Shown: in pieces, positions 2-39,075 of the stretch
Position numbering within the stretch: the stretch's first letter is position 1
How the letters are laid out: the number at the start of each line of letters is the position of its first letter
From: Acidilobaceae archaeon
Lineage (GTDB): Archaea; Thermoproteota; Thermoprotei_A; Sulfolobales; Acidilobaceae
DNA length: 64,000 nucleotides
Assembly (NCBI GenBank): GCA_025058835.1
Contig: JANXEI010000002.1
Coordinates: 124,001 to 188,000, forward strand
Direction: 5' to 3'
Notes under the pieces: generated by a model
Seen by the model: the letters and a program-made list of their open reading frames with translations, nothing else
Told to the model about the DNA's origin: nothing
The model's database searches: none
Made by a program: the position numbers and the translations under genes

Positions 2-979
2 ATCGTGCTGGACAAGGAGGTTGTACACCCTGATATGCCGAAGAGGGTGGAGAGCGCAAAGATCGCCCTTCTCGATGCGCCTCTAGAGATAGAGAAGCCG
101 GAAATAGATCTAGAGATTAGTATCTCCAGCCCCGATCTCATGAGGAAGCTAATGGAGAAGCAGGAGAAGATCCTAGCGTCCAAGGTAGAGAAGATAGCTG
201 CAACTGGTGCCAACGTAGTCATAACCCAGAAGGGGATCGACGATGTGGCCCAGCACTTCCTAGCGAAGAAGGGCATACTTGCAGTGAGGAGGGTAAAGAG
301 GAGCGACATAGAGAAGCTGGCAAGGGCTACGGGAGCAAAGATAGTCACCGACATAGAGGACCTGAGTGCCGACGACCTTGGCTTCGCAGAACTAGTCGAG
401 GAGAGGAGAGTCGGAGAGGACAAGATGGTGTTCGTGGAGGGCGCAAAGAACCTTAGGAGCGTGACCATTGTGGTGAGAGGAGGATTTGAGAGGCTGGTAG
501 ATGAAGCTGACAGGGCACTCCACGACGCCCTGAGCGCGGTAGCAGATGCGGTTATGGACGGCATGGTGGTAGGGGGAGCTGGTGCCACTGAGGCGGAGTT
601 GGCAAAGAACATATACGAGTTCGCTAGGACGCAGCCTGGCAAGACTCAGCTGGCCGTAGAGGCCTTCGCTAGAGCCCTGGAAGCGATACCTCAGATACTC
701 GCCTTCAACGCGGGCCATGACCCAATAAACGTGCTGGTGAAGCTCAGGAGTGCTCATGAGAGGCCCGACGGGACTTTCCTAGGGATAGATGTGGAGACAG
801 GGGAGCTGCTGAACACCTGGGAGGCTGGCATAGTGGACCCAGCCAGAGTAAAGGCTAACGCGCTGAAGGCTGGTACCGAAGCGGCTTCCCTCATACTCAG
901 GATAGATGACATGATAGCAGCAAAGAGGTCAGAGGAGAAGGAGAAGAAGGAAAAGGGCGGAGCTGAGAAGGAAGACTAG
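2..979 (+). CDS. thsA: thermosome subunit (group II chaperonin), C-terminal part
   Basis: ATP-dependent cytosolic protein-folding chaperonin (archaeal CCT/thermosome family). The reading frame is open from the first base of the window, so the N-terminal ~220 residues, including the equatorial ATP-binding part, lie upstream; the GTG at 5 is not the start. What is present matches the apical domain (the VVHPDMPKRVESAKIALLD block) and the C-terminal equatorial domain, with the AGATEAELA block and the conserved GIDVETGELLNTWEAGIVDP stretch near the end. The tail is charged and Lys/Glu-rich, as in other thermosomes. A hairpin plus T-run follows the stop. Ring partners (other subunits) are not in the window. 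Confidence 0.96.
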   Translation: MVLDKEVVHPDMPKRVESAKIALLDAPLEIEKPEIDLEISISSPDLMRKLMEKQEKILASKVEKIAATGANVVITQKGIDDVAQHFLAKKGILAVRRVKRSDIEKLARATGAKIVTDIEDLSADDLGFAELVEERRVGEDKMVFVEGAKNLRSVTIVVRGGFERLVDEADRALHDALSAVADAVMDGMVVGGAGATEAELAKNIYEFARTQPGKTQLAVEAFARALEAIPQILAFNAGHDPINVLVKLRSAHERPDGTFLGIDVETGELLNTWEAGIVDPARVKANALKAGTEAASLILRIDDMIAAKRSEEKEKKEKGGAEKED

Positions 980-1031: not shown

Positions 1032-1262
1032 GTGGGAAGAGTCAGGAGCTCCCTCGTCAAGAGGACTGCTAGGAAGCTCTTGGAGAGCTATCCGGATATA
1101 TTCACGGGCGGCTTCGAGCACAACAAGGTGGTGGTAGGGCAGCTGTTGGAGCTGAAGAGCAAGAAGCTGAGGAACCAGATAGCCGGCTACATAACGCATA
1201 AAGTGAACGCTGCCCTCAAGAGGAAGGGCAGCACGCAGAAGGAGGAGCCGGAGGAGCTATAG
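1032..1262 (+). CDS. rps17e: 30S ribosomal protein S17e
   Basis: Small-subunit ribosomal protein shared by archaea and eukaryotes. The 76-residue product starts at GTG and begins MGRVRSSLVKRTARKLLE, which is the diagnostic S17e N-terminus; the middle NKVVVGQLLELKSKKLRNQI also fits. Length is typical of archaeal S17e (60-80). The C-terminus is a charged tail. It sits 52 bases after the thermosome stop and 13 bases before the MoaD-PRTase gene, so it may be cotranscribed with the latter. Confidence 0.97.
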   Translation: MGRVRSSLVKRTARKLLESYPDIFTGGFEHNKVVVGQLLELKSKKLRNQIAGYITHKVNAALKRKGSTQKEEPEEL

Positions 1263-1275
1263 CGGTGTCCTCGCT

Positions 1276-2001
1276 TTGTCGAAAATAACTATCAGGTTCC
1301 TCGGTCACCTCTCAGAAGTCCTAGGGAAGGAGAGCATAGAGATAGAAGCAGAGGGGTGGAAGGAGGCATTACTGAAGCTGAGGGGTATGAGTGAGCGGCT
1401 GGCAGATGTGATAGAGCCCTCCGGAGAGCCCTCTCCTGCATATATGGTCTTCGTCGATGGGGTTGACTATAGGATAGCCGAGAGCTCCCAGGCAAGGGAA
1501 ATCGTGCTGTTCCCAGTGGTCCATGGAGGCAGCGTGAGGCTACTCTCCTGGGAAGAGATAGCAACGACGTCACAGGCAGTAGCAGACAAGATCTTGAAGT
1601 CAGGCTTCATGCCAGACGTTGTAGTGGGTATACTCAGAGGGGGCATTGTGCCGGCCCTCCTTGTTGCTGACCTGTTGGGCGTTGACGACGTGGGGACCAT
1701 AGAGGTCAAGCTATATCAAGCTCCTAGGGAGAGGAGGGAGAGGCCTTTCCTCAGACAGCCCCTCCTGCTTGACGTGAGGGAGAAAAAAGTCCTCCTCGTA
1801 GACGATGTGAGCGACAGTGGCCTCACGCTAGAGCTCGCCATAGATTACTTAAAGCATCACTCGCCTGCTATGGTGAAGACTGCGACCCTCTACGTGAAAC
1901 CTTGGACTCGATTCGTGCCCGACTACTATGCAGAGACTACAGAGAGCTGGCTCGTCTTCCCTTGGGGGAGAGGGGAATTCCGCAGGGCCTCCAACGCTTG
2001 A
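1276..2001 (+). CDS. MoaD-like beta-grasp domain fused to phosphoribosyltransferase
   Basis: A two-domain protein of 241 residues starting at TTG. Residues 1-85 look like a MoaD/ThiS/SAMP ubiquitin-like protein and end in VVHGG, exactly where free MoaD proteins stop with Gly-Gly. Residues ~87-241 are a purine-type phosphoribosyltransferase with the GILRGGIVPA loop (118-127) and the PRPP loop VLLVDDVSDSGLT (172-184). A GTG codon at 1534, two codons after the Gly-Gly, could start the PRTase alone (155 residues, the usual size). PRTases of this type salvage xanthine/guanine; MoaD proteins carry sulfur or modify proteins. Whether the product is one protein, is cleaved after GG, or is also made from the internal start cannot be told from sequence. 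Confidence 0.85.
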   Translation: MSKITIRFLGHLSEVLGKESIEIEAEGWKEALLKLRGMSERLADVIEPSGEPSPAYMVFVDGVDYRIAESSQAREIVLFPVVHGGSVRLLSWEEIATTSQAVADKILKSGFMPDVVVGILRGGIVPALLVADLLGVDDVGTIEVKLYQAPRERRERPFLRQPLLLDVREKKVLLVDDVSDSGLTLELAIDYLKHHSPAMVKTATLYVKPWTRFVPDYYAETTESWLVFPWGRGEFRRASNA

Positions 2002-2447
2002 CAGGTCGCAGGGTTCTCGTGAACGTGGGTCAGAGGAGGCTCGAAGTAGTTAGACTGTTCCTAGAGAGGCCCATCCCTCCGCGACCTCTCCGTTCCTCTA
2101 TGGACCACGTGCTCATTGCAGGCCTCCCGCGAGAGGTCGACCCCTGCTCCGCGATCCTCGCTTATATGTATGTGACTGAGGACGTTCTGTTAGGGACTAA
2201 AGTGAAGAACAAATCCCTTCTTTTCGCGATGAACATCCTAGGCCTGAAGCAGACTAAGGAGGTCGTAGAGGGGGTAACGGAGTTTCTCTCAGTAGTCGTC
2301 GCAGGGCCAGAAGGAAAGGCAAGTGAGGCCCTGGAGGAGGTGAGGCAGCAGCTGGGAGCGGATTTCATAGACGTAAGATACGACAGCTTCTCCTGCTCCC
2401 CAGAGGAACTGGAGAGAATAACGAGAGAAAGAGTGGAGAGGCTATAG
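1998..2447 (+). CDS. Cgi121-like KEOPS subunit (tentative)
   Basis: 149-residue product if it starts at the TTG at 1998, which overlaps the TGA of the preceding gene (TTGA) and suggests translational coupling; an open frame extends further upstream inside the PRTase but is unlikely to be used. The order of elements, a SSMDHVLIAG strand, a helix-rich middle (AILAYMYVTEDVLLGTKVKN then LLFAMNILGLKQTKEVV) and a strand LSVVVAG with a final helix, resembles Cgi121, the KEOPS-complex subunit that helps make t6A in tRNA. The match is by pattern only and no catalytic residue exists to confirm it. Otherwise a conserved protein of unknown function. Confidence 0.5.
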   Translation: MTGRRVLVNVGQRRLEVVRLFLERPIPPRPLRSSMDHVLIAGLPREVDPCSAILAYMYVTEDVLLGTKVKNKSLLFAMNILGLKQTKEVVEGVTEFLSVVVAGPEGKASEALEEVRQQLGADFIDVRYDSFSCSPEELERITRERVERL

Positions 2448-4685: not shown

Positions 4686-4994
4686 TTGAGCAAGCGGCTA
4701 GGGTTTCCCAAAAAGAGAGAGGACATAGAAAAAATAGTAGAAGAAGTGAGTTCGGAGCATGAACACGAGCACGAACATCATCACCACCACCATCACGAAG
4801 AGAGCCCAGAGCTAAGGATGGTGATAGACTCGCTTAGCGCAAAGCTCACTCTCATGGAGGAGAGGCTAGAGGCGCAGAGCGCAGAGATAGCAAGACTTTA
4901 CAAGGTCTTAGCGCACCTCGTGGAGGCGCTGGCTGCCGACTCTGAGGAGGAGAAAAGGAGAGCTCTGAATGGGGCTCTTGCTGCGCTAGAGTGA
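4686..4994 (+). CDS. histidine-rich coiled-coil protein, function unknown
   Basis: 102 residues from a TTG preceded by GAGGG. Residues ~24-38 alternate His and Glu and then run through seven consecutive His, an obvious potential binding site for Ni, Zn, Co or Cu. The rest (residues ~42-100) is predicted helical with heptad-like spacing (IDSLSAKLTLMEERLEAQ, IARLYKVLAHLVEAL), so a coiled-coil oligomer is likely. No signal peptide or membrane segment, so cytosolic. It has its own TATA box and is followed 5 bases later by a ribbon-helix-helix gene, suggesting one operon. I do not recognise a family; metal storage or sensing is inference. Confidence 0.8.
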   Translation: MSKRLGFPKKREDIEKIVEEVSSEHEHEHEHHHHHHHEESPELRMVIDSLSAKLTLMEERLEAQSAEIARLYKVLAHLVEALAADSEEEKRRALNGALAALE

Positions 4995-38820: not shown

Positions 38821-39075
38821 GTGAGCGTGATCGTGAGGGTCTACGGAGATCTCAGGGAGGTACTGGGTTGGAGCCAAAAGGAGGTGGAGAGAGGGAGGAA
38901 CCTGGGGGAGACCCTCAGGAAAGTCCCCCTCCTTTGGGAATCCATAAGCAAGTACCCCTTTGACACCTTGATAATACTGATAAACGGTCGAAACGCCCGG
39001 CTCTCAGGAGGTTTGGAAGCAGAGGTAAAGGAGGGGGATGTTATAGACGTCTTCCCGCCTGCGGCAGGCGGCTAG
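38821..39075 (+). CDS. moaD: MoaD/ThiS-family sulfur-carrier protein
   Basis: 84-residue beta-grasp protein starting at GTG. N-terminal strand VIVRVYGDLREVLGW and a C-terminal VIDVFPPAAGG ending exactly in Gly-Gly, the residue pair that is activated to thiocarboxylate. It may donate sulfur for molybdopterin or act as a SAMP-like protein modifier. The 3' end is convergent with moeA, overlapping it by 4 bases, so it sits within a molybdenum-cofactor neighbourhood. Confidence 0.92.
   Translation: MSVIVRVYGDLREVLGWSQKEVERGRNLGETLRKVPLLWESISKYPFDTLIILINGRNARLSGGLEAEVKEGDVIDVFPPAAGG

Follow-up and report, generated by a model that had tools for sequence, protein, structure and literature searches.

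The window analysed here is the whole 64,000-nucleotide stretch of Acidilobaceae DNA, and the gene under study is the open reading frame at 1276-2001 on the forward strand. The frame is open over 241 codons (241 amino acids) from a TTG start to a TGA stop at 1999-2001, and its product reads ...LFPVVHGG-S-VRLLSWEEI... at the junction of two domains. A complete phosphoribosyltransferase (PRTase) stands in frame behind a Urm1-type ubiquitin-like domain (Ubl) that ends His-Gly-Gly (HGG), which confirms the fusion at the Gly-Gly of VVHGG that an earlier, sequence-only reading of this DNA had reported. The gene begins 13 bases past the gene for ribosomal protein S17e, and its stop codon is overlapped by the start of the next gene. 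The features of the locus are as follows.

2-979, forward strand: thermosome subunit, truncated by the window edge (assigned from its sequence; a full-length thermosome gene lies at the same place in relatives)
1032-1262, forward strand: ribosomal protein S17e (PF00833, 4.7e-15), which adjoins the Ubl across the order in many relatives
1276-1530, forward strand: Urm1-like ubiquitin-like (beta-grasp) domain of 85 amino acids, from the TTG start to His83-Gly84-Gly85 (codons 1522-1530; NF053661 and a profile match to 4wwm)
1525-1533, forward strand: predicted processing site Gly84-Gly85 / Ser86, a putative cut suggested by HGG invariance and a dip in AlphaFold2 confidence
1531-2001, forward strand: 6-oxopurine PRTase of the GpT-2 type with the PRPP motif VLLVDDVSDSG, stop codon at 1999-2001 (PF00156, 4z1o, Foldseek)
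1534-1536, forward strand: internal GTG (Val87), with GGAGG upstream at 1525-1529
1998-2447, forward strand: divergent Cgi121-like protein (profile-profile match; same position as confirmed Cgi121 genes in relatives)

The protein encoded at 1998-2447 had no match in Pfam or NCBIfam, and comparison of its family profile with the Cgi121 profile by hhalign gave a probability of 86 and an E-value of 4.9e-6. Elsewhere in the window, a small open reading frame at 4686-4994 (forward strand) carries a His/Glu run (HEHEHEHHHHHHHEE) and is possibly metal-binding.

Residues 6-85 of the fusion resemble the NCBIfam model Urm1_like (NF053661, 1.4e-7) and also moaD_arch, in both cases below the curated cut-off. 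A single-sequence PDB search with the Ubl domain alone returned no match, and the top PDB match of the profile of the fused Ubl was 4wwm (7.7e-11), which is Urm1 of Sulfolobus solfataricus (PMC4569737). The domain is thus a beta-grasp domain of about 85 amino acids related to Urm1, as in the Urm1/SAMP group; the earlier description of a MoaD/ubiquitin-like domain was right about the beta-grasp fold, and the affinity is to Urm1 instead of MoaD proper. The assignment of the second half as a purine-type PRTase was borne out. Residues 91-231 match Pfam Pribosyltran (PF00156, 1e-23) over its cut-off, and this half matches the hypoxanthine/guanine/xanthine PRTase GpT-2 of S. solfataricus (PDB 4z1o) at 4.4e-35 with 36-37% identity and, by Foldseek, at 4.1e-20. 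With the PRTase fold and a PRPP motif it is a type I purine PRTase, and by analogy with its closest solved relative it would act on 6-oxopurines. GpT-2 has the same fold but is free-standing. The AlphaFold2 model of the fusion has a mean pLDDT of 86.6, which dips to 67 over residues 81-90 where the Gly-Gly lies, and a pTM of 0.64, so that the relative placement of the domains is uncertain. The Gly-Gly of the Ubl is invariant yet internal in the gene product, and would become C-terminal only after a cut.

A search of related genomes for the fusion, proposed in the sequence-only reading, was made within a comparison that covers more than 140 genomes. The protein was matched in 47 of 48 Acidilobaceae genomes and in 14 of 14 genera, some of these matches being to a PRTase paralogue only, and we read 43 fused genes in the family, several of them from single-contig or closed genomes. 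The occurrence of the identical fusion in 43 genomes, closed ones among them, rules out an assembly or frameshift artefact. A resequencing correction, a frameshift in this assembly and absence of the fusion from relatives, each named earlier as a possible refutation, are likewise excluded.

Four further families of this order (f4, f7, f8 and f10) have Ubl and PRTase as distinct neighbouring genes. At the loci examined in detail, in f8 and f10, the Ubl ends exactly in HGG-stop, the PRTase starts at or just past that stop, and the pair is often adjoined by S17e. In a tree built from Ubl and PRTase, all 44 Acidilobaceae rows form one clade (support 94/93), and two members with split genes, G001 and G002, nest within the window's own genus beside G004 and G005 (support 99/97). 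Because G001 and G002 lie inside the fused clade, the fusion appears from these sequences to have arisen once and to have been undone once. Their split was also considered as the ancestral state, which the strongly supported nesting rules out. The loss of a stop codon and fixation of the fusion, one of three possibilities raised earlier, is supported as history by the adjacent genes with HGG-stop in the outgroups and by the single clade of fusions. In the re-split genes (L049 and L050) the last Ubl residues are HGGMLGG or HGGVFGG; across the overlap the PRTase is read in the +1 frame and starts at a TTG. Some fusion may still be produced at these two loci by a programmed +1 frameshift.

HGG is kept in 43 of 43 fusions, in a clade whose tree is 17.8 changes per column long. 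The Gly-Gly is written with 13 codon combinations and the His with both of its codons, which argues that selection acts on the protein. In contrast to this invariance, the residue directly after HGG has 12 identities among the 43 fusions, and the distance from HGG to a conserved Trp of the PRTase ranges from 5 to 15 residues, as in a freely drifting linker. A conserved Gly-Gly with residues behind it, the pattern of a JAMM-processed precursor, is thus present in every fusion. Free PRTases have a similar N-terminal length ahead of the conserved Trp, so a cut after Gly-Gly would free a near-native PRTase. HGG could be retained partly for structure.

A genome was scored as JAMM-positive when it had a match to PF14464 (Prok-JAB/JAMM) above the curated cut-off. 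The window genome, G000, carries two relevant genes.

G000:C22:355337-355738 (L074:1338-1739): JAMM protein with the motif HTHPSCPAVPSPAD plus an upstream Glu, and a PDB match
G000:C22:106683-107429: E1-like protein

The JAMM protein is the predicted cognate protease and has the catalytic motif, retaining the motif Glu, HxH, Ser and Asp. Its best match is Pyrococcus JAMM1 (PfJAMM1, 5lda; 9.4e-20), and it resembles the Haloferax desampylase model weakly. The E1-like protein is a candidate activator of the Ubl. The JAMM gene lies directly behind an MJ0936-type phosphodiesterase gene (L074, L238, L251), and this pair is conserved in several Acidilobaceae.

Across the family, JAMM was over the cut-off in 41 of 48 genomes, with about 6.6 misses expected from summed incompleteness. 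Seven genomes that bear the fused or split gene had no JAMM over the cut-off (G001, G007, G062, G046, G048, G050 and G015). They were considered as counter-examples and rejected as such in three cases that contig ends explain: the end of the JAMM gene sits at a contig start in G001, the first half of the gene runs off a contig end in G007, and in G062 the contig stops at the conserved phosphodiesterase neighbour, on the side where JAMM would lie. Four incomplete family genomes, the sisters G048 and G050 among them, showed no sign of JAMM. The phosphodiesterase neighbour is missing as well from G046, G048 and G050, where either an assembly gap or a true loss of JAMM is possible, and the completeness of G015 is 55%.

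Most Acidilobaceae genomes checked, G017 included, also carry another MoaD/ThiS-type Ubl. The argument that the fused Ubl is the only one, and hence must be cut, is ruled out by a second Ubl ending VLSGG in G017 and by two more Ubls in the window genome; in the genomes with such a further Ubl the fusion need not be the sole Ubl source. One of these is a second, free MoaD/ThiS-type Ubl at 38821-39075 of the window (forward strand), which ends exactly in AAGG-stop beside a NUDIX-like gene. Outside the window, a SAMP1/MoaD-like protein encoded at L233:881-1204 on the reverse strand (G000:C22:347880-348203) has nine residues past its Gly-Gly (SGG-AEERLAHYF) and adjoins a MobB-like gene; it is apparently a further Ubl precursor of this organism. 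At L228-L231 a second Ubl ends LSGG; where it shares a contig with the fusion, the two are about 8-12 kb apart, and in L231 (G045) this type has an AKV tail past the Gly-Gly.

Throughout the order we read the Ubl orthologue that adjoins S17e, with Acidilobaceae excluded from the tail counts. Outside Acidilobaceae, 28 orthologous Ubls have residues past HGG and every such genome has a JAMM, whereas tails occur in 0 of 59 JAMM-less genomes. Within the order, tails were found in 0/46 JAMM-negative and 19/27 JAMM-positive genomes (Fisher 1.4e-11, related genomes treated as independent). Among genomes at least 90% complete the counts were 0/35 and 12/18, and by genus they were 0/26 and 6/8 (2e-5, ancestry ignored). 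The remainder of the phylum was then used as a new test set, with tails in 0/13 JAMM-negative and 9/27 JAMM-positive genomes; these nine are thaumarchaeal-type Ubl-Cgi121 fusions (6/6) and three short tails. With shared ancestry in mind, the association rests on roughly 4-6 independent gains of a tail; gains were seen in f1, f2, f3, f5, f13 and a few others, always with a JAMM. Exact HGG ends occur in 26 JAMM-positive genomes outside Acidilobaceae, so a JAMM does not by itself entail a tail. JAMM also takes off conjugated modifiers, and its presence thus needs no precursors.

Cgi121 is fused past HGG in the f2 genera g45 and g47 and in G027 of f5. The loci with this arrangement (L080-L086, L053) have a Urm1-like Ubl joined, directly after HGG, to Cgi121, a KEOPS subunit. 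They belong to crenarchaeal genera that are not Thaumarchaeota, and in their close relatives Ubl and Cgi121 are separate genes that overlap, with HGG-stop. The short tails of f5 and f3 read DI, ANV, IKI, SPRHM, SI, LA or KE, or have 14 residues, and are reminiscent of eukaryotic SUMO/NEDD8 precursors. Such variable tails of 2-14 residues were seen at L088, L098, L099, L055, L089, L125, L126, L127, L128, L132 and L134. In family f6 (L054, L057, L141, L142, L143) the related Ubl ends His-Arg-Gly, not His-Gly-Gly, in all genomes read.

We propose that the gene product is probably a Ubl precursor that is cut after Gly-Gly by JAMM to give a free Urm1-like modifier or sulphur carrier and a free PRTase. 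In this mechanism, one mRNA would yield a single chain in which the Urm1-like domain is joined via His-Gly-Gly to the 6-oxopurine PRTase, and a JAMM/MPN+ metalloprotease of the JAMM1 type would cut past the second Gly. The freed C-terminal Gly of the Urm1-like protein would then be adenylated by the E1-like enzyme and used in sulphur transfer, protein conjugation or both, and the PRTase would be released with a near-native N-terminus. Several lines of evidence argue for a precursor cut by JAMM: HGG is invariant beside a drifting linker, post-Gly-Gly residues go with JAMM, most family genomes encode a JAMM, the window genome has both a JAMM1-like protease and an E1-like gene, the re-split Ubl again ends in Gly-Gly, and cleavage has published precedents. 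MoaX of Mycobacterium tuberculosis must be cut, at Gly82/Ser83 (PMC4326299), HvJAMM1 cleaves a linear SAMP1-MoaE fusion (PMC4443979), and a Deinococcus JAMM cleaves MoaD-MoaE (PMC8832034). CsJAMM cleaves natural SAMP precursors, and CsRpn11 cleaves the Caldiarchaeum ubiquitin precursor after Gly-Gly (PMC6043591). A pro-protein cut after Gly-Gly, also among the earlier suggestions, is therefore the best supported of them, with the cut itself still a prediction. We infer the cut, JAMM as its agent, what becomes of the products and how they are used, and any benefit of co-production; possible reasons for the last are equal amounts, folding help or a control that the cut exerts on the enzyme.

The same observations could also be explained by a stable two-domain enzyme that is left uncut, with the Ubl staying on as a regulatory or docking domain of the PRTase or directing it to the proteasome. 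The open frame conserved throughout Acidilobaceae fits this explanation, N-terminal Urm1 fusions of Sulfolobus are recognised by the 20S proteasome in vitro (PMC4569737), and the SAMP1-MoaE linkage inhibits its enzyme (PMC4443979). We consider it unlikely, because it leaves unexplained why HGG is invariant beside a drifting linker, why post-Gly-Gly residues are associated with JAMM, and why the secondary split produced a free Ubl ending in Gly-Gly.

Internal initiation at the GTG past Gly-Gly-Ser, with GGAGG supplied by the Gly-Gly codons, would make free PRTase alongside the fusion. The sequence-only reading had taken the GTG-encoded Val after the Ser for the natural PRTase start. The window does have GGAGG at 1525-1529 and GTG at 1534, and in split relatives the Gly-Gly codons lie just upstream of the PRTase start. 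Of the 43 fusions, however, just two have a GTG at this position, L001 and L002 (from the window species and its closest relative, G003). In 24, the stretch from HGG to the conserved Trp lacks any ATG, GTG or TTG, and in the remainder the position of such a codon varies. Internal initiation is thus not the general design, although it is possible in the window species, and the Ubl would not be freed by it; as the explanation of the fusion we regard it as very unlikely.

A cut after Gly-Gly made mainly by a protease other than JAMM seems highly improbable. The enzyme that cuts M. tuberculosis MoaX is not yet named (PMC4326299) and four incomplete family genomes show no JAMM, but the distribution of tails points to JAMM, and the known cleavage of archaeal Ubl precursors is by JAMM enzymes (PMC6043591, PMC4443979). 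Finally, stop-codon loss comes easily between overlapping genes, but a neutral accident or assembly error of no functional meaning is hardly credible for a fusion that is shared by 43 genomes, closed ones among them, and in which both domains are constrained.

The fusion resembles several known systems. In eukaryotes, ubiquitin is made as fusions that need a cut after Gly-Gly. As in Ub-L40, Ub-S27a and FUBI-S30, a Ubl is placed here N-terminal to an unrelated housekeeping protein and joined to it at Gly-Gly, with a cut after Gly-Gly predicted. The present fusion differs in its archaeal Urm1-type Ubl, its purine-salvage partner and its predicted stand-alone JAMM, and the likeness is one of design, with no shared origin. 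The MoaD-MoaE proteins (M. tuberculosis MoaX, Deinococcus DR2607) also join a beta-grasp, sulphur-carrier-like protein at Gly-Gly to a downstream enzyme, and MoaX is cut at a Gly-Ser bond, as is predicted here. MoaE, however, is the Ubl's own working partner in MPT synthase, whereas the PRTase is without known link to Ubl chemistry; with PRTase in place of MoaE, the fusion is set apart from this group. The Caldiarchaeum CsUb-pre and SAMP precursors (PMC6043591) likewise have residues past Gly-Gly and a JAMM-family cut, but their tails are short and contain no whole enzyme.

Within archaea, the closest counterparts are found with related Ubls. Makarova and Koonin described in 2010 a Ubl-Cgi121 fusion in Thaumarchaea; in Sulfolobales they described a Urm1-like Ubl adjoining the genes for S17e and the thermosome. 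The main text of their paper has no mention of a PRTase (PMC2948915). The thaumarchaeal protein shares with ours a related Ubl, the S17e neighbourhood and fusion directly after HGG, and JAMM was present in 6/6 genomes read. Its partner is a KEOPS subunit, whereas here the PRTase sits between the Ubl and the Cgi121-like gene. Sulfolobus Urm1 (arCOG00540, Saci0669, PDB 4WWM) looks orthologous, with an HGG end and a place by S17e and thermosome genes, but is a free protein ending exactly in HGG; it forms protein conjugates and interacts with the proteasome (PMC4569737). The Sulfolobus genomes read had no PF14464 JAMM over the cut-off. A literature search for a fusion of Ubl, Urm1 or MoaD to a phosphoribosyltransferase in archaea, Aeropyrum included, found none in sources other than subscription papers, where a prior description is possible. 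The Urm1-PRTase fusion is therefore apparently new, whereas archaeal JAMM precursor processing and Ubl-Cgi121 fusions were already known.

Taken together, these results describe a natural, family-wide archaeal counterpart to eukaryotic ubiquitin fusions, in which a Urm1-type modifier is joined to a metabolic enzyme. They provide a testable rule for archaeal Ubl precursors, in that post-Gly-Gly residues are seen only where a JAMM is encoded, and many crenarchaeal JAMM proteases that lack an assigned role gain a concrete predicted substrate. The repeated capture of an operon neighbour as a tail suggests a common route to such fusions. More tentatively, in the crenarchaeal order and further afield Urm1-like modifiers may often be precursors where JAMM is present, the operon neighbour (PRTase or Cgi121) having repeatedly become the tail. 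The Acidilobaceae cut might then also switch on the purine-salvage enzyme or set its amount, which would link Ubl supply to nucleotide salvage and make the fusion an independent counterpart of the ubiquitin-ribosomal fusions.
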